Shown here one piece after another: positions 2,217-58,302 of a DNA stretch of 64,000 bases (its first letter is position 1; each line of letters opens with the position of its first letter). The notes below the pieces were generated by a model that saw only the letters and a list, made by a program, of their open reading frames with translations, was not told where the DNA came from and searched no databases. The stretch is from contig SVGC01000013.1 of the NCBI GenBank assembly GCA_015056495.1, forward strand, positions 42,456-106,455, in the 5' to 3' direction. Source of the DNA: Butyrivibrio sp. (lineage in GTDB: Bacteria > Bacillota > Clostridia > Lachnospirales > Lachnospiraceae). The translations under genes and the position numbers were made by a program.

Positions 2217-3638
2217 GTGGCAGCTACAAGGCTGATTTCCATGCATATGAATAAAGGCAAATCTATTCAGCAGTGCATCAAGGACAGAACGGATTATGCT
2301 CAGAATCCTGAGAAAACAGAACATGGACAATTGGTCAGTAGTTATGAGTGTGATCCCAAGCTTGTTGAAGAACAGTTTGCTGTTTCTAAGAGGGAGTATC
2401 TTCAAAAGACCGGAAGAAAATATAACGGTGATGTTATAGCATATCAGATCAGGCAGGCCTTTAAGCCTGGGGAGCTTACACCGGAAGAAGCAAACAAGAT
2501 TGGCTATGAAACGGCAATGCGCTGGACAAAAGGACGGCACGCCTTTATCGTTGCAACTCACATTGACAGAGCCCATATTCACAACCATATCATCTACAAT
2601 TCCACAAATCTTAACTGTGATGGCAAGTTCAGGGACTTCATATTGTCAGGCGTGGCTCTGCGTAAAGTCAGTGATATAGTCTGCATAGAAAATGGACTAT
2701 CTGTCATTACACCAAGGAAGCCAAGTGAACGTTCCAAGCGAACGGTATATCCCAGCCGAAAAAGCTTCCGAGAAGAAATTCGTGAGGCAATCGATATCTG
2801 CATGGAGCAAAAGCCAAAGGATATGGATGAGCTGATAAAGCTGCTTTCGGAAATGGGATATGAGTGTAAATGCGGTAAATATGTTTCGCTTAAAGGAAGA
2901 TGTCAGCGTAAGTATTTACGTATTCGCTCTCTTGGGGCAGGCTATCGAGAGCAGGATCTGGAAAAGGTATTTTCAGGCGAAGCAACCTTTATCCCTAATC
3001 CTAAGCAGGATAAAAATGAGTTTTTCACTCCTGTAAAAGATGAGCCAAAGCTTGATATGCTGCTTGATATCCAGGCTTTGATTGCCAAAGGTAAAGGACC
3101 AGGTTATGAACGATGGGCTAAGGTTCATAACATTAAGCAGATGGCACAGACCCTACTGTTTTTGGAGGAACACGATATCAGAGATTATGCAGATCTTGCA
3201 TCAAGAGCCAAGTCAGCTTCTGAAAGATTTGGTGAGATTACTACCAAGCAAAAGGAACTGGAAAGTAGACTGGAGGAAATCGCTACTCTGAAAAAGCACA
3301 TCATAAACTATTCCAAGACTAAGGATGTCTATGCAGAATACAGAAAGAGCGGCTATAGCAAAAAGTTCTATGAAGAACATCGTGAGGCGATTACTTTGTG
3401 TAAGGCTGCGAAAGAAGCTTTTTCCAAGATTCAGGGAAATATCCCGAAGATAAAAGAACTGAATGAAGAATATGCCAAGGTTCTTCAGAAAAAGAAGGGA
3501 ACATATGCTGAATACCGGCAGGCAAAGCAGGATATGAAAGATTATCAGACAGCCAAATACAACATAGATCGATTCCTCAAATTTGAGGAGTCGGAAAAGC
3601 AGGCAGAAAAGCAAAAGACAACTGTAAAGTCACTATAG
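2217..3638 (+). CDS. relaxase/mobilization nuclease (MobA/VirD2-type)
   Basis: HxDxxHxHNH-type motif ATHIDRAHIHNHIIYNST; N-terminal catalytic region; coiled-coil C-terminus. Confidence 0.92.
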   Translation: MAATRLISMHMNKGKSIQQCIKDRTDYAQNPEKTEHGQLVSSYECDPKLVEEQFAVSKREYLQKTGRKYNGDVIAYQIRQAFKPGELTPEEANKIGYETAMRWTKGRHAFIVATHIDRAHIHNHIIYNSTNLNCDGKFRDFILSGVALRKVSDIVCIENGLSVITPRKPSERSKRTVYPSRKSFREEIREAIDICMEQKPKDMDELIKLLSEMGYECKCGKYVSLKGRCQRKYLRIRSLGAGYREQDLEKVFSGEATFIPNPKQDKNEFFTPVKDEPKLDMLLDIQALIAKGKGPGYERWAKVHNIKQMAQTLLFLEEHDIRDYADLASRAKSASERFGEITTKQKELESRLEEIATLKKHIINYSKTKDVYAEYRKSGYSKKFYEEHREAITLCKAAKEAFSKIQGNIPKIKELNEEYAKVLQKKKGTYAEYRQAKQDMKDYQTAKYNIDRFLKFEESEKQAEKQKTTVKSL

Positions 3639-3644
3639 TAATTG

Positions 3645-3688
3645 GGGAGATTCTATCAGCAGGAGCTGACGGAGTCTCCCGCTTTTTT
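3645..3688 (+). terminator. rho-independent terminator after relaxase
   Basis: GGGAGA...TCAGC AGGA GCTGA...TCTCCC followed by a T-run. Confidence 0.75.
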
Positions 3689-3957
3689 ACGTTAGGGTAT
3701 TGTCGTCAGCGGCACTTTATGTGACGCGTAGCTCCGAGTGAAACGAGGTTCTGGGGGATTGGGGACACGCCCTCCAACAAGCGAGCTGCATCCGGTGATA
3801 ACCGATGCCCTGCTTGCGAAAATGGAAAATCAGACAAGCAGGAGAGAATGATTGTGAAAATGTATGTTGTTCGGGATATAGTTTTGAATGTAATTAAACA
3901 GAATGCCGAATCAAAATAGAATGGAAGTATGTAGGTTATAATAAATACGATAGACAG

Positions 3958-3990
3958 AAAGACTCACCTCATATTGGTGAGTCTTTTTGA
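3958..3990. terminator. bidirectional terminator at the 3' end of the ATPase operon
   Basis: AAAGACTCACC / GGTGAGTCTTTTT perfect stem at a convergent junction. Confidence 0.8.
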
Positions 3991-4003
3991 GCTATTATAA
4001 CTC

Positions 4004-5836
4004 TTATTTGTCTGGATTATAGACGTCATTTAGAAATCCGTATTGACCATGATCTTTGTCATGAGTAAATATTTTAGTACGTATTCCTGCTGATTCATCA
4101 GTTTCAGGAATGAAAGGCATTCGCTCTGTTTGTTCTATAAAGATAATTTGGTGATCTTTGGCGTGCTTAATAAGAAAGTTTATGAAGTTCTGTTTGATGG
4201 TTTCATCTTGCTCTTTATACTTTGATTCAGAAAACTGCGTTAATGCAGAATCTACTGCATAAAATCCAGGGGCGTATTTGTCTAATTCAATTAGGTATCT
4301 ATTCAATGCTAGTGTAGTAATGGTGTTAAGAATGGCGCAAATACCACCGCCACTAAAAACGGCTTTTTTCATTTTGTTGATTTCGATATCAAAGATATCC
4401 ATATTTAGGCGTGCAGTCTCAGCACCGCCAAATTTTGATTCTCTAAGAATATAGCGAAGTCTGTCCTCTAAACCGTGAATGAGCTGAGGGGTGAAGTCAT
4501 CTTTTATGTGATATTCTACAGATTTTGGAGTTTCTTGAGTTTCTTTCTCATATAGTTCATTTCTAAGTTCATATTCGTTTTCACGGATAATTTCAAGCTC
4601 GCTAGAAAGCCGAATGAATTTGAGGTTTTTATCGAGTTGTTCTTGAAACGCTGATAATTGGGGCTGTAGTTGTTCTGATATCATGGAATCTATATTGTGG
4701 CGTTTTTCTTCGAGCGACTCTATCGTGCTGATAAGTTCATTTTCTTGGAATTCAACAGTTGCTTGTGCATTTCCTAATTCCTTAAGGCTTTGTTTTATTT
4801 TTTCTAGTTCGGAAGCTGAAGACTCAATGATGGCAGGATCATTTAATACTTCGGTTTCGGTTCCACAGATTGGGCAAATGGTCTTTGTCGGTTCAGAACT
4901 ATCATTTGTGGCGCAGTCTACTATGAAGCCAATTCTCTTAATATCTGCTTGGTATTGAATTCGGAGATTTGAAAAATTATGTTTAACGGTTCTGGTTTCA
5001 GAAAGCTTACTATTTAGCTGGTATATCTTTGACATGAGTTCATCGCTTTCTTGAGTCGCTGCATTAATCATGTTTTGAAGCTCGGCGATTTTTTCTTTAA
5101 TCTGATTCATAGCCATATGAGGGCTTTGATTTTCAGCTCCTTCTAATACGCGCTCTATTTCTGCGCGCTTGTTAGCAGTATAGTTCACTTTGTCCAAAAG
5201 ATAATTAACTAGAGCTTGCCGCTTGCCTTCTGTAATTTTGGGGTCTTCTTTAGAATCAATATTTGATGCGTCTTGACCTGTAAGGAGAAATAATAAAACG
5301 GCTAATGACGCAGTTTCTCCGGCATTGTTTGGAAACAAAAGAGCAGAACTTTCCCTATCAACATCGCCTTGCTTGAGCATGAAGAGATGAAGCATGCTTC
5401 TCCATGTAAGCGCTTGAGTACTGTCATCTTTTTGGGCAGATCTGATTTTGTGGTCTTCATCAATTCCAAGTAGTTGTAAGTAGACAGAATTAATACTTTT
5501 CTTTGCGGAATGACTTGTACTGTAGTGCCCTGCAGTGAAGCCACCTCCACTAACATAGATTTTGGATTCGCCGATTGTTCGCTTTAGTGTTACATCACCA
5601 TTTTCAGTTGATAGAATTAAGGTGACATATTCATATCCATTGTTGTTATCTACGACTTTTGAAGGTCTGTCTTTCCTAGGAGTAAAACCGAATACATAAT
5701 CTATTGATTCCATTATGAAACTTTTTCCAGTATTGGAGGGACCAAGAACAAAATTAAGACCTGGGCAAAATTCTATAATTGAATCTTGATGGTTAGGACC
5801 GGATACAATTAACTTCTTGATATAGAATCTTTTCAT
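4004..5836 (-). CDS. SMC/Rad50-like ABC ATPase, ABC-3C-like system ATPase component
   Basis: Walker A GPSNTGKSF, long coiled coil interrupted by zinc-hook-like CPIC (ICPICGTETEVL), late Walker-B-like region QIIFIEQTERMPF. Confidence 0.75.
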   Translation of the reverse strand: MKRFYIKKLIVSGPNHQDSIIEFCPGLNFVLGPSNTGKSFIMESIDYVFGFTPRKDRPSKVVDNNNGYEYVTLILSTENGDVTLKRTIGESKIYVSGGGFTAGHYSTSHSAKKSINSVYLQLLGIDEDHKIRSAQKDDSTQALTWRSMLHLFMLKQGDVDRESSALLFPNNAGETASLAVLLFLLTGQDASNIDSKEDPKITEGKRQALVNYLLDKVNYTANKRAEIERVLEGAENQSPHMAMNQIKEKIAELQNMINAATQESDELMSKIYQLNSKLSETRTVKHNFSNLRIQYQADIKRIGFIVDCATNDSSEPTKTICPICGTETEVLNDPAIIESSASELEKIKQSLKELGNAQATVEFQENELISTIESLEEKRHNIDSMISEQLQPQLSAFQEQLDKNLKFIRLSSELEIIRENEYELRNELYEKETQETPKSVEYHIKDDFTPQLIHGLEDRLRYILRESKFGGAETARLNMDIFDIEINKMKKAVFSGGGICAILNTITTLALNRYLIELDKYAPGFYAVDSALTQFSESKYKEQDETIKQNFINFLIKHAKDHQIIFIEQTERMPFIPETDESAGIRTKIFTHDKDHGQYGFLNDVYNPDK

Positions 5837-6294
5837 AATGTAGGCTCCTTAAGAGATAGGGCAGTGACACGATTTATTTCTTTTTCCATTTGATTTGAGT
5901 TGATATCTGGAAAGCGCTGTAATACTGCTTTTACTGCCAAAGAATATTCTTTTGCATAGCTATTATCCAGCTTTTGATATCGTTCCATCCCTGCATCCGA
6001 AATAGAATATGTATAACCTTCGGGTGTTATATTCAGATTTATTAATTGTTTTAATACAAGCTGTTTTAAAGCAGCAGAGGTTAATGCTTTTCTTGAGGCA
6101 TACTCGCTAAATCTATAGTTTCCATAACCATGGAGGTTTTTATCAATAATATCAAAATCTTCGGCATATACTGCAATAAAGTCGATAGCTGCTATTTGAC
6201 GTTCGTCCAACAATAGATTAGGAAGTGAGTTCATCATTACTACTATACGTTGAGAAATCTCATATATAGATCCGATTACTGTTCTATCAGTCAT
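5833..6294 (-). CDS. winged-helix-like middle component of the ABC-3C-like system
   Basis: 153 aa, ASRKALTSAALKQLVLKQLINLNITPEGYTYSISDAG wHTH-like; 4-bp overlaps with both neighbours. Confidence 0.6.
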   Translation of the reverse strand: MTDRTVIGSIYEISQRIVVMMNSLPNLLLDERQIAAIDFIAVYAEDFDIIDKNLHGYGNYRFSEYASRKALTSAALKQLVLKQLINLNITPEGYTYSISDAGMERYQKLDNSYAKEYSLAVKAVLQRFPDINSNQMEKEINRVTALSLKEPTL

Positions 6295-34849: not shown

Positions 34850-34929
34850 AAAATGAGTCACTGGGGACGTATCAAAATGACTCATTGTGCACAATGAGTC
34901 ATTTTGATACGTCCCCGGTGACTCGTTTT
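34850..34929. repeat. REP-like palindrome, copy 1
   Basis: 80-bp near-perfect inverted repeat centred on TTGTGCACAA; arms AATGAGTCACTGGGGACGTATCAAAATGACTCATTG. Confidence 0.9.
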
Positions 34930-52837: not shown

Positions 52838-55450
52838 ATGAATATCCAAAAGTTTACACAGAAATCAATTGAGGCTGTGAATAACTGTGAAAAGGTTGCT
52901 ATGGACTATGGCAATCAGGAGATTGAACAGGAACACTTGCTATACAGCCTTTTGACAATAGAAGATAGCCTTATCATTAAACTTATAGAAAAGATGGGTA
53001 TCAGCAAGGAAAGCTTTATACAGAGAGTCGAGCAGGGACTTGCCAAGAGGACCAAAGTCTCCGGAGGCAATCCGTACGTAGGCCAGTATCTGAATAAAGT
53101 GCTTCTAAGCGCTGAAGATGAAGCCAGGGCCATGGGAGATGAATATGTATCAGTGGAACATCTCTTCCTGTCTATGCTCAAGCATCCTAATCGTGAGATC
53201 ATGGATATCTTTAGCGAATTTGGAATTGATAAGAACTCATTTTTACAGGTGTTATCAGAGGTAAGGGGCAATCAGAGAGTTGTCAGCGACAATCCTGAAG
53301 CAACCTACGATACTCTGAATAAATATGGCTCAGAGCTTGTGGAAAAGGCCAAACAGCAGAAAATGGACCCTGTTATAGGCAGAGATGCTGAGATCAGAAA
53401 TGTTATCCGTATCCTGTCCCGTAAGACCAAAAATAACCCTGTCCTGATCGGTGAGCCTGGTGTTGGTAAAACAGCAGTTGTAGAGGCTCTGGCACAGCGT
53501 ATCGCCAGCGGTGATGTACCAACCGGACTTAAGGATAAAAAGATATTTGCTCTGGACATGGGAGCACTTGTTGCAGGAGCCAAATACAGAGGCGAGTTTG
53601 AAGAGAGACTTAAAGCTGTTCTTGAGGATGTAAAAAAGAGTGAAGGAGAGATTCTTCTCTTTATCGATGAGCTCCATACTATTGTCGGTGCAGGTAAGAC
53701 AGACGGTGCCCTTGATGCCAGCAATATGTTAAAACCTATGCTTGCAAGAGGCGAGCTCCACTGTATCGGTGCTACTACACTGGATGAATATAGAGAATAC
53801 ATCGAAAAAGACCCGGCTCTTGAACGTAGATTCCAGCCTGTAACAGTTGATGAACCAACTGTAGAGGATACAATCTCTATCCTTCGTGGACTTAAAGAGA
53901 GATATGAAGTATACCATGGCGTTAAGATCATGGATAATGCTCTGGTTAGTGCAGCAACACTTTCAGACAGATATATTTCCGACAGATTCCTTCCAGATAA
54001 GGCCATCGACCTTGTTGATGAAGCCTGTGCCCTTATCAAGACAGAGATGGATTCAATGCCAGCCGAAATGGACGAACTGAACCGTAGGATCCTTCAGATG
54101 CAGATAGAAGAAGCTGCTCTGAAAAAAGAAGATGACTCACTCAGCAAGGAGAGATTGACTAATCTTCAAAAGGAACTTGCAGAACTTAGAGCTGATTTTG
54201 ATAACCGCAAGGCTCAGTGGACAAATGAGAAAGCTTCTGTAGATAAGCTAGCTGCTCTTCGTGAACAGATAGAAAATATGAATAATGAAATACAGAAGGC
54301 TCAGAGAGAAGGCGACCTTGAAAAGGCAGCAGAGTTACAGTACGGTAAACTTCCTGCTCTTAAGAAAGAACTTGAAGATGCAGAGGAAAGCGTAAAAGAA
54401 GAGGAATTGTCCTTAGTCCATGAAAAAGTAAGCGAAGAAGAAATTGCCAAGATCATTTCTAAATGGACAGGAATACCTGTATCAAAGCTTACAGAAAGTG
54501 AGAGAAATAAGACACTTCATCTTGGAGAAGAACTCCATAAGAGAGTTGTTGGTCAGGATGATGCTGTTACAAGAGTCTCAGAAGCAATCATGAGATCCAA
54601 AGCCGGTATCAAGGACCCATCCAAGCCTATCGGATCATTCCTGTTCCTTGGCCCAACAGGTGTTGGTAAAACAGAGCTTGCCAAGGCCCTTGCAGCTTCA
54701 CTTTTTGACAACGAAAACAATATGGTCAGGATCGATATGTCTGAATATATGGAAAAATACAGTGTATCAAGACTTATCGGTGCAGCACCAGGATATGTAG
54801 GTTATGAAGAAGGTGGTCAGCTTACAGAGGCAGTTCGTAGAAAACCATATGCAGTAGTACTCTTTGATGAGATTGAAAAAGCTCATCCGGATGTATTCAA
54901 TATCCTGCTGCAGGTACTTGATGACGGACGTATCACTGATTCACAGGGAAGAACAGTTGATTTTAAAAATACTATAATCATTTTGACTTCAAATATTGGA
55001 GCCCAGGATCTTCTTGATGGAATAAGTGAAGATGGCGAGATTAGTCAGAACGCAGAAAATGCTGTAATGGAGCAGCTCAGAATGCATTTTAGACCAGAGT
55101 TTCTTAACAGACTTGATGAGACCATAATGTTTAAACCTCTGACAAAAGGAAATATTAGTGGTATCATAGATTTAATTGTGGCCGATCTTAACAAGAGACT
55201 TGCAGACAGAGAGATAAGCATTGAGCTTACAGACGCTGCCAAGACATATGTAGTTGATAATGCATATGAGCCGACCTATGGAGCAAGACCTCTTAAGAGA
55301 TACATACAGAAATATGTCGAGACAATGTCAGCTAAACTGATCCTTGAAGATAAGGTGGAGCCTCATGATTCCATCATCTTTGATGTTCAGGCTGGAGAAC
55401 TTACTGCAACAGCTGTTCATAATGCAGTTCCACGTATCGAAGAGGCATGA
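52838..55450 (+). CDS. clpB: ClpB disaggregase
   Basis: Two AAA+ domains ([16 protein letters not shown]) and a middle coiled coil. Confidence 0.96.
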
Positions 55451-55727: not shown

Positions 55728-55807
55728 TAAATGAGTCACTGGGGACGTATCAAATTGACTCATTGCACACAATGAGTCAAACTGATACGTCCCCAGTGAC
55801 TCGTTTA
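55728..55807. repeat. REP-like palindrome, copy 2
   Basis: Same sequence family as 34850-34929: AATGAGTCACTGGGGACGTATCAAATTGACTCATTG...CAATGAGTCAAACTGATACGTCCCCAGTGACTCGTTTA. Confidence 0.9.
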
Positions 55808-55827: not shown

Positions 55828-58302
55828 ATGACATACTTCACCTGTTTTTTCCTTGATAATGAAAAAGACATAATAGTGAGCCTATACAAAGATCTGGATA
55901 GGCTCTATTATGTTCTGACCACACCGAATCACAGTAGTGGAAATCTTATTAGGAATTTGTCAAAAGTGTGCAGATTGCCACTTTCCAAAGATGACGACAA
56001 CAAACTCATCATCAAGGGTGAAGTCCCTTGTTTTATAGATGGCTGTAATGAAGAACAGTACATCTTTAAAATGGGTGAAACAGAAATAGCCAGTATAAGT
56101 GCCGAAGGCAATGTGGAGATGAAGGCAACCATTCCCGCTATTGCCAAGACGCTTATGAGCCAGACCAAAGAATTTCATCTTGAAAAAGGAAAAACTATTT
56201 TCAAGACATATATACGCAAAGATCTTAAATTTCACGCGGATCTCCATACTCATATGAATGGAAATCTTCCGGGCGATATTTTGATTGCCCTCGGAATCTA
56301 TCATCAGATCCGATATCCATTATATTATGTCAAAAAACTGGGCCTTGAACTGACAGATGCTCAGTGGGAAAAACTGAATATCCAGAGAGAAAAGGTTTCA
56401 AGACAGTTTGTTTCTTCCGACCTTAAGGGCAAGTATCTTGATCGAAGGATCAATGACAATACCTTCATTAACTTTGCAGATCTGATACTAGGTAACCTTG
56501 ATAATGCAGAGATGAACATAGTCAAGATCCGAGGTTCCCTTGCGATCATCAAGGATGGACAGGCTGTTTTTACCAACCTGGAAAAAGTGTATCTCTATCG
56601 CTATGTATTCTGCAAAGGACAGGAAAGCGAAGAAAAAATAGAGCTAAACCGTATAGAGCAGATCCCTGATGAAGGCGTAAAATCAGCTCTTAAGCAGATG
56701 CTGAAGGACAAGGAAAGCCTGCCATACTGCCACAATACTCTTTTTCAGGATAAATTATTGTGGATTGCCAGAAATTATAAGAAACAGGGAATAGTTTATG
56801 CTGAGATAAGTGATACGACACTTGTTAAAAAATATGAGTCTATAGAAATGCTCAGACAGGTACATGAAGTCATGCCCAAAATATATCAGGAAACTGGCGT
56901 CATGATACGATTTCTTGCCGCTATGCGTAGGATTCCGCTAACCATTGTCAAAGATGCTGTGACACCTGCCAACTACCTCGAGCAAAATCTTGAAGTACTT
57001 AAAGCCACAGCCCTTGATCCATATGTGGCAGGCTGCGACTTTGTCGGTGAAGAAATCAATGACATCATCACTTTGAAACCTGCATTTAAAGAGATTGTAA
57101 AAATAGCCGCCAAAGATCCAAGTTTTGTCATAAGGGTCCATGCCGGTGAGAATGATAGTCAGAAAGATAATATTGCTCACAGTATTGCCTGTGTCAAAGA
57201 CTCACTCCAGCCTGGTCAGAAGATGCCCAAGATGCGCCTGGGACACGGCTTATATACATATAGTCCGACTTCTAAAAAGGGAAAAGAAGTCCTTAAGCAG
57301 TTAAAAGAAAATAACGTGGTGCTGGAGTTCCAGATTACGAGTAATGTAAGACTCAACAACCTCAACTCCCTTGAGCACCATCCTCTGAAGCAGTACTTGA
57401 AACAAGGCATACAGTGCGTTCAGGGAACTGATGGTGCAGCATTATACGGCACCAACTCTATTGATGAGCAGCTCTCCCTTGAAAAGATGCTTGGTCTGTC
57501 AGAATCAGATCAGCTTCTGATGAAAGAGGCAGAGACCAGGATCATTGAAGATAGCCGCAAGGCATATTCTGATAAAAAGCTCGCCTTTGAGCAGATGATG
57601 AATGGCCGTGATATGGAAGAAGTCCTTCTAGAAAAAATGAAGGCTGTAAAGATCACCAAGAAGATAAGCGAAGATGCACTTAAACTGGACGCTAACACAG
57701 AACTGAAAAATCAGATAAGTGAGATTACCTGGGACAGACTTCCGGTTGTACTTATCGGAGGCAGCTTCAATACTGAGAACAGAGCTACCAAGCTCAGCAG
57801 CAATGCCACAGCGCAGCTGGACAAGCTTCTGGAATACCTTAGCCCGGAAGAAGTAGTATTTGTAATAGGTCATAAGCTGACTGGTTATGAGAAATATCTT
57901 TTGGACCACAATAAGAAAGGCTTCAAGATATATTCAGTAGTTCCATCTCTCATTACCAAAAAAGAAGCTGACAAGATCAAGGCAGCAGGCGTAATGGTGA
58001 GGGTATCCACTGAATCTCAGGGAATGGGTATCTATAAGAGCTTTAATTATGAGATATTTGAGCGCAGACCTTCAATGGTAGTAGCCTTCGATGGCAATAG
58101 CGCAGCCGCCAACCTGATTCAGGAAGCCAAAAACGGAAAAGGTATGTCCGAGATATTTGTCTGGGGACATTCCAAGAACCTTAGACAAAAGGCGTCATCA
58201 TTGCACGGCTATGTATTCACATTTGATGAAGAGAACTCCATAGTCGATACCATTACAAGCCTTCAGAAAAGGCTTGCTGAAAAGATGAATAAAGGCGAAT
58301 GA
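55828..58302 (+). CDS. adenosine-deaminase-like amidohydrolase with N-terminal extension and Rossmann/SLOG-like C-terminal domain
   Basis: HADLHTHMNGNLP, VIRVHAGEN, RLGHGLY, QGTDGAALYGT metal/active-site motifs; C-terminal PVVLIGGSFNTENRATKLSSNATAQLDKLLEYL. Confidence 0.75.
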   Translation: MTYFTCFFLDNEKDIIVSLYKDLDRLYYVLTTPNHSSGNLIRNLSKVCRLPLSKDDDNKLIIKGEVPCFIDGCNEEQYIFKMGETEIASISAEGNVEMKATIPAIAKTLMSQTKEFHLEKGKTIFKTYIRKDLKFHADLHTHMNGNLPGDILIALGIYHQIRYPLYYVKKLGLELTDAQWEKLNIQREKVSRQFVSSDLKGKYLDRRINDNTFINFADLILGNLDNAEMNIVKIRGSLAIIKDGQAVFTNLEKVYLYRYVFCKGQESEEKIELNRIEQIPDEGVKSALKQMLKDKESLPYCHNTLFQDKLLWIARNYKKQGIVYAEISDTTLVKKYESIEMLRQVHEVMPKIYQETGVMIRFLAAMRRIPLTIVKDAVTPANYLEQNLEVLKATALDPYVAGCDFVGEEINDIITLKPAFKEIVKIAAKDPSFVIRVHAGENDSQKDNIAHSIACVKDSLQPGQKMPKMRLGHGLYTYSPTSKKGKEVLKQLKENNVVLEFQITSNVRLNNLNSLEHHPLKQYLKQGIQCVQGTDGAALYGTNSIDEQLSLEKMLGLSESDQLLMKEAETRIIEDSRKAYSDKKLAFEQMMNGRDMEEVLLEKMKAVKITKKISEDALKLDANTELKNQISEITWDRLPVVLIGGSFNTENRATKLSSNATAQLDKLLEYLSPEEVVFVIGHKLTGYEKYLLDHNKKGFKIYSVVPSLITKKEADKIKAAGVMVRVSTESQGMGIYKSFNYEIFERRPSMVVAFDGNSAAANLIQEAKNGKGMSEIFVWGHSKNLRQKASSLHGYVFTFDEENSIVDTITSLQKRLAEKMNKGE

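Follow-up and report, generated by a model that had tools for sequence, protein, structure and literature searches.

An adenosine deaminase-family protein with a C-terminal SLOG-like domain in Butyrivibrio: a candidate adenine-nucleotide deaminase

The 64,000-nucleotide stretch of Butyrivibrio sp. DNA analysed here (the window) carries a gene for an 824-residue protein in which an adenosine deaminase (ADA) barrel is followed by a predicted SLOG domain. We tentatively propose that this protein, ADA-SLOG, is a stand-alone, SLOG-gated adenine-nucleotide deaminase with a role in nucleotide-pool or stress control. The open reading frame, the domain order, a conserved catalytic centre, two substitutions in the substrate pocket, the predicted SLOG fold and the pattern of inheritance are the observations from which we infer the activity, the class of substrate, the ligand, the gating and the role. 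The substrate and the ligand, in particular, are suggested by the two substituted positions and by the fold.

Organization of the ADA-SLOG protein

The gene lies at 55828–58302 on the forward strand and starts with ATG. A reading frame of these coordinates and this length had been reported in the first-pass annotation, and both are borne out by the translation. Conservation in orthologues of 53–83% identity and in a distant homologue excludes a chance reading frame, and on this sequence evidence the gene is judged to be genuine.

The N-terminal region (residues 1–133; 55828–56226, forward strand) is rich in strands. An extension of about 130 unassigned residues had been described here earlier; the region measures about 133 residues and found no match in Pfam or PDB sequence searches. 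Strands and one helix are predicted for it in the full-length model, and 105 of its 133 residues can be aligned to the distant 783-residue homologue, at 20% identity. The ADA (amidohydrolase) domain follows (residues 134–590; 56227–57597, forward strand), delimited by the Pfam family PF00962 and by Foldseek matches to adenosine deaminases. Beyond it are a variable linker and the C-terminal domain. The full-length AlphaFold model is of moderate quality (pLDDT 79, pTM 0.64), so that it does not fix where the SLOG domain sits with respect to the ADA site.

The ADA barrel retains the metal and catalytic residues

Pfam A_deaminase (PF00962) matched residues 314–561 at E=2.3e-16 (60.2 bits against a cut-off of 27), and a Foldseek search with the full-length model returned adenosine deaminases, the best at E=8.5e-8. 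A score above the curated cut-off, together with a complete set of HxH, HAGE, GHG and Asp motifs, places the sequence in the ADA superfamily. All the features of the centre are on the forward strand. The first metal-ligand pair is H140-T-H142 (56245–56253), H438-A-G-E441 (57139–57150) supplies a further metal ligand and the catalytic Glu, H473 (57244–57246; mouse H238) is the catalytic His, and D535 (mouse D295) is the metal Asp, encoded together with G536 at 57430–57435. H140, H142, H438, E441, H473 and D535 are invariant in 23 aligned orthologues (53–83% identity) and also in the distant homologue, which is 25% identical. The core motifs quoted in the first-pass annotation are thus all present and the ADA-type metal centre that it recognized is intact. 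Two of these motifs, however, are not classical in detail: GTDGAALYG has a Gly after the metal Asp in place of the TDD or TDN of classical enzymes, and in DLHTHMNGNLP the 'HMNG' has Asn where ADA has Asp.

Alignment against ordinary ADAs revealed an insertion of roughly 100 residues in the barrel, within a stretch of about residues 176–305 (56353–56742, forward strand). About half of this insertion is absent from the distant homologue. Assignment to the classical adenosine deaminases was considered and rejected on the equivalog model TIGR01430, where the protein scored 54 bits against a cut-off of 216.55, and on the substrate residues described below.

The adenosine-reading residues are replaced

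In mouse ADA, Asp19 touches the ribose hydroxyls and Asp296 is required for both binding and catalysis (PMC12669630). Both residues are replaced in every member of the ADA-SLOG group, Asp19 by Asn or Ala and Asp296 by Gly. The Asp19 position corresponds to N144 (56257–56259, forward strand), which is Asn in 23 of 23 orthologues and Ala in the distant homologue; the Asp296 position corresponds to G536, which is Gly in all 23 and in the homologue as well. In ordinary clostridial ADAs, used as controls, Asp19 was kept in 15 of 15, and Asp or Asn was found at 296 in all 15 sequences readable there.

These controls bear on how the substitutions are to be read. TaqCad1, a deaminase of ATP but not of adenosine, has Gly at the Asp19 position and Asn at the Asp296 position (PMC12669630). 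As a specific mark of ATP deaminases the Asp296 change is weakened, Asn being common there in ordinary bacterial ADAs. Because ordinary ADAs keep Asp19 and have Asp or Asn at 296, the telling changes appear to be the replacement of Asp19 and the Gly at 296, and a change of Asp296 alone says little. The N6-methyl-AMP deaminases 8qch and 6iv5 also have Asn at the Asp19 position. Since this residue is Asn in enzymes acting on a 5′-monophosphate and Gly in Cad1, a 5′-phosphorylated adenine nucleotide seems the likelier substrate, although the pocket positions do not indicate which one.

The C-terminal domain is predicted to adopt a SLOG fold

Residues 632–803 (57721–58236, forward strand) form a SLOG-like Rossmannoid domain, recognized from its domain model, from Foldseek and from its invariant motifs; domains of this kind act as signal sensors in immunity proteins and ion channels. 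Across the C-terminal 190 residues or so, no Pfam family (SLOG models included) scored above its cut-off and PDB sequence searches gave no convincing match. The AlphaFold2 model of the domain alone is confident (pLDDT 89, pTM 0.87) and Rossmannoid, and its top Foldseek matches among PDB folds were the SLOG domains of TRPM4 and TRPM3, DprA, the MoCo carrier protein and ShosA (probability 0.98–1.00, E 0.003–0.02). When the full-length model was searched, the 50 best matches included a single SLOG protein, a MoCo carrier protein. The C-terminus of the distant homologue gave a weak match to LSDAT_prok ('SLOG in TRPM, prokaryote'; E=0.007, 16.1 bits against a cut-off of 25.4), which lends further support, and a SLOG fold is assigned on these models with good confidence. 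The Rossmannoid, SLOG-like C-terminus had been anticipated in the first-pass annotation, which proposed AlphaFold and Foldseek as the check and the lack of a nucleotide-binding fold as a reason to abandon its reading; a fold of the nucleotide-binding type is what these methods predict.

The domain is also strongly conserved. Among the 23 orthologues little or no variation is seen in the blocks GGS, R652/T654, GYEK, YKS.NYEIFERR, DGN and QEAKNGKG, and 51 of the 172 positions of the domain are invariant as compared to 2 of 41 in the linker that precedes it (residues 591–631; 57598–57720, forward strand), where the mean pairwise difference is 0.45. Such invariance next to a freely varying linker is as expected of a working pocket.

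Distribution and inheritance

Of the 47 complete genomes available for the window's genus, 39 carry the form of about 820 residues, in one copy each; the other 8 are without it, and some of these have only a short ADA. In a second genus, of Clostridia with small genomes, 30 of 47 complete genomes carry the gene and 17 do not. Missing from members of both genera, the gene is therefore not essential. One genome of the second genus carries a disrupted copy, with stop codons and a split match, which fits dispensability there. Named relatives include Butyrivibrio, Pseudobutyrivibrio and Lachnospira, and named loci from Clostridia metagenome-assembled genomes (MAGs), about 54% identical to the window protein, look like the same group as the second genus. 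The gene is patchy elsewhere: it was present in 8 of 200 genomes sampled from the wider family, the distant homologue (783 residues, 25% identical and co-linear over its full length) came from 1 of 99 genomes of its own family, and a search with the SLOG domain alone in 398 genomes of the phylum returned two orthologues only. The window's genome gave no A_deaminase-family match other than the ADA-SLOG protein; some other genomes of the genus encode a classical ADA in addition.

Over 27 genomes the distances between ADA-SLOG proteins correlate with ClpB distances (Mantel r 0.71, with 0 of 999 permutations; within the genus, r 0.59), and their mean is 1.4 times that of ClpB. That the distances follow those of ClpB points to mostly vertical descent. 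Viral contigs, phages and plasmids yielded no relative beyond ordinary ADAs; two plasmid matches were set aside because they are ordinary ADAs without SLOG, and a viral structure library gave no meaningful match. On a Novosphingobium humi plasmid an ADA-type reading frame without SLOG (2778–5958) lies beside an apparent SIR2-type protein, in a record that is unannotated.

Genomic neighbourhood

No conserved neighbour or operon partner was found in the window and 30 further loci, even between orthologues of about 80% identity, and 25 upstream regions share no promoter or regulon motif. A conserved housekeeping context in all relatives had been named at the outset as grounds against a nucleotide-sensing system; because no neighbourhood is conserved, this objection cannot hold. 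Those neighbours that were tested look like housekeeping genes (UvrC, DinB, a YfbR nucleotidase, an ABC transporter, a LacI regulator and a SpoU methylase). There were no defence-specific genes among them, the ClpB and ABC-transporter matches being to generic ATPases, and no Cas genes of type III CRISPR systems. A 153-residue protein with the cytidine/guanine deaminase zinc fold is encoded upstream on the same strand at five loci, among them three of the four Clostridia MAG loci in which ClpB lies downstream (see below).

In the window the gene is flanked by clpB and by an apparent exopolysaccharide locus, both names being read from sequence. ClpB (52838–55450) adjoins the gene upstream in the window and downstream in four Clostridia MAG loci. 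It was rejected as a partner, as the other members of the genus that were checked have it at a different place in the genome. In a ClpB search at E≤1e-200, 4 of 6 carriers of ADA-SLOG in the second genus were matched and 0 of 10 non-carriers; in the window's genus and family all 30 carriers were matched, carriers alone being searched there. Shared ancestry may account for this pattern.

Just upstream of the gene is an inverted repeat with 38-nt arms (55728–55807; MFE −66.7 kcal/mol, z=−13.2). The hairpin is near-perfect, with ACTGGGGACGT at both ends, and stops roughly 20 nt short of the start codon. The motif recurs as a second pair near 34860–34919 of the window. In sequence it looks like a repeat of the REP/MITE type.

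Proposed function and alternative explanations

In the reading that we place first, the ADA barrel would use its normal metal/Glu/His centre to convert the 6-amino group of an adenine compound to an inosine-type product. The altered ribose/5′ pocket (Asp19 to Asn, Asp296 to Gly) makes it likely that this compound has a 5′-phosphate (AMP, ADP, ATP or a derivative) and is not free adenosine. The C-terminal SLOG domain, by analogy with CARF in Cad1, would bind a nucleotide-type ligand and set the activity of the barrel, and the protein would most likely help to control the purine-nucleotide pool or act in a stress response. The idea of a single-gene system that senses and deaminates nucleotides, put forward in the first-pass annotation, fits the domain anatomy best; its hint of a role in biological conflict fared less well, given the neighbours tested, free of defence genes, the failure to find phage, viral or plasmid relatives and the mostly vertical inheritance. 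Nucleotide-pool or stress control is thus the more likely role as compared to phage defence.

Four readings were weighed, and the nucleotide- or stress-control deaminase, itself tentative, is followed by three of decreasing probability. An anti-phage effector encoded by a single gene is possible but on balance unlikely. Here a signal nucleotide raised by infection would bind SLOG, the barrel would turn ATP, dATP or another nucleotide into inosine forms and growth would stop. Two known ADA-type effectors, RdrB (PMC9994260) and Cad1 (PMC11645235), perform such nucleotide deamination; SLOG serves as the sensor in Thoeris ThsA (PMC11204291); the pocket is changed at the same two positions as in TaqCad1; and outside the two main genera the gene is patchy, both in the wider family and in that of the homologue. 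This has to be set against the housekeeping neighbours tested, the searches that gave no phage, plasmid or viral relatives, the invariable single copy with largely vertical descent within the genus, and loci that, where examined, hold no gene for a signal-making partner. The lower-ranked idea of an ordinary salvage deaminase for adenosine or deoxyadenosine, with decorating domains and a SLOG that merely holds an oligomer together, draws on superfamily membership and on the protein being the sole ADA-family member of its own genome, where it could fill a salvage role. It is improbable given that no member has Asp19 or Asp296, residues that the ordinary ADAs read retain (with Asp or Asn at 296), that some genomes of the genus encode a classical ADA as well and that the SLOG motif block is strongly conserved. 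Several SLOG families, LOG for example, are enzymes, and this block is highly conserved, so a bifunctional protein could be imagined whose SLOG domain, like LOG and PpnN, hydrolyses a nucleotide or nucleoside and acts in sequence with the deaminase. PGGxGTxxE, the motif of LOG, was not seen in the sequence, however, and the nearest folds (TRPM, DprA, MoCo carrier) are binding domains, which leaves this the least probable reading.

A more specific and rather doubtful version of SLOG gating would make ADA-SLOG a third independent bacterial ADA-type ATP deaminase beside RdrB and Cad1, a one-protein system that would turn ATP into ITP once its SLOG domain had recognized a signal nucleotide, ADP-ribose-like or other, and that is encoded by a resident chromosomal gene of rumen and gut Clostridia. 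No description of an ADA-SLOG fusion was found in the literature searched, which mostly excluded subscription papers, and this is not proof of novelty. Should the preferred SLOG-gated deaminase hold, nucleotide sensing and deamination would be joined in one bacterial protein with SLOG replacing CARF as the sensor, and regulated ADA-type nucleotide deaminases would extend beyond RADAR and Cad1. Such enzymes would then also seem to serve ordinary nucleotide control, since common rumen bacteria keep this gene as a resident and pass it on mostly by vertical descent. With a single gene and clear residues to mutate, the proposal is directly testable.

Comparison with known systems

With the classical adenosine deaminase (Add) the protein has the metal and catalytic residues in common; unlike Add, it lacks Asp19 and Asp296 and has the insertion and two added regions. 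The N6-methyl-AMP deaminases (ADAL/MAPDA; 8qch, 6iv5) share the Asn at the Asp19 position and act on a 5′-monophosphate, but they are single-domain proteins of about 355 residues and the solved ones are eukaryotic. On the side of the C-terminal domain, TRPM channels (LSDAT), DprA, the MoCo carrier protein and Thoeris ThsA have the SLOG that is predicted here; none of these is fused to ADA, and their sequences are too distant for a Pfam assignment of the window domain.

RdrB of RADAR forms a dodecameric shell and converts ATP to ITP. PADLOC, which presumably includes an RdrB model, gave at E≤1 no match besides CARF_ADA, and thus none to a RADAR/RdrB profile. No RdrA AAA+ ATPase was seen beside the gene, and no neighbouring gene is conserved across the window and the 30 loci. 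The first-pass annotation had remarked that no RdrA-like ATPase is adjacent, which holds, the adjacent AAA+ protein being ClpB; the kinship to RdrB that it suggested finds no support. Membership of the RdrB family was rejected on these two grounds, the profile search and the neighbourhood. RdrB (8fnv, 8fnw) resembles the window protein in its large size, in belonging to the ADA family and in having both an extended N-terminus and an insertion that splits the barrel (PMC9994260). In its PDB chains, however, the ADA profile still matches at residues 690–778 of about 798, which leaves no room for an added C-terminal domain.

Cad1, the CARF-fused ADA of type III CRISPR systems (9c67, 9ebt, 8z3k), is a parallel in design, as it likewise joins an ADA barrel to a nucleotide-sensing domain of Rossmann type, and in TaqCad1 the same two pocket positions, Asp19 and Asp296, are changed. 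It appeared among the structure-search matches (rank 30) and in a mixed ADA profile search. Its sensor is a CARF domain at the N-terminus, whereas that of the window protein would be SLOG at the C-terminus. The PADLOC match to CARF_ADA was weak (37 bits, from profile position 303 of 605, within the ADA part), and it reflects ADA homology only, because ordinary ADAs run as controls score 120–174 bits on the same profile. With this score and a 133-residue N-terminus in which neither CARF nor any other Pfam family was matched, membership of Cad1 was likewise rejected. The window protein thus belongs to neither the Cad1 nor the RdrB family; at most, by analogy, it may work like Cad1 with another sensor.
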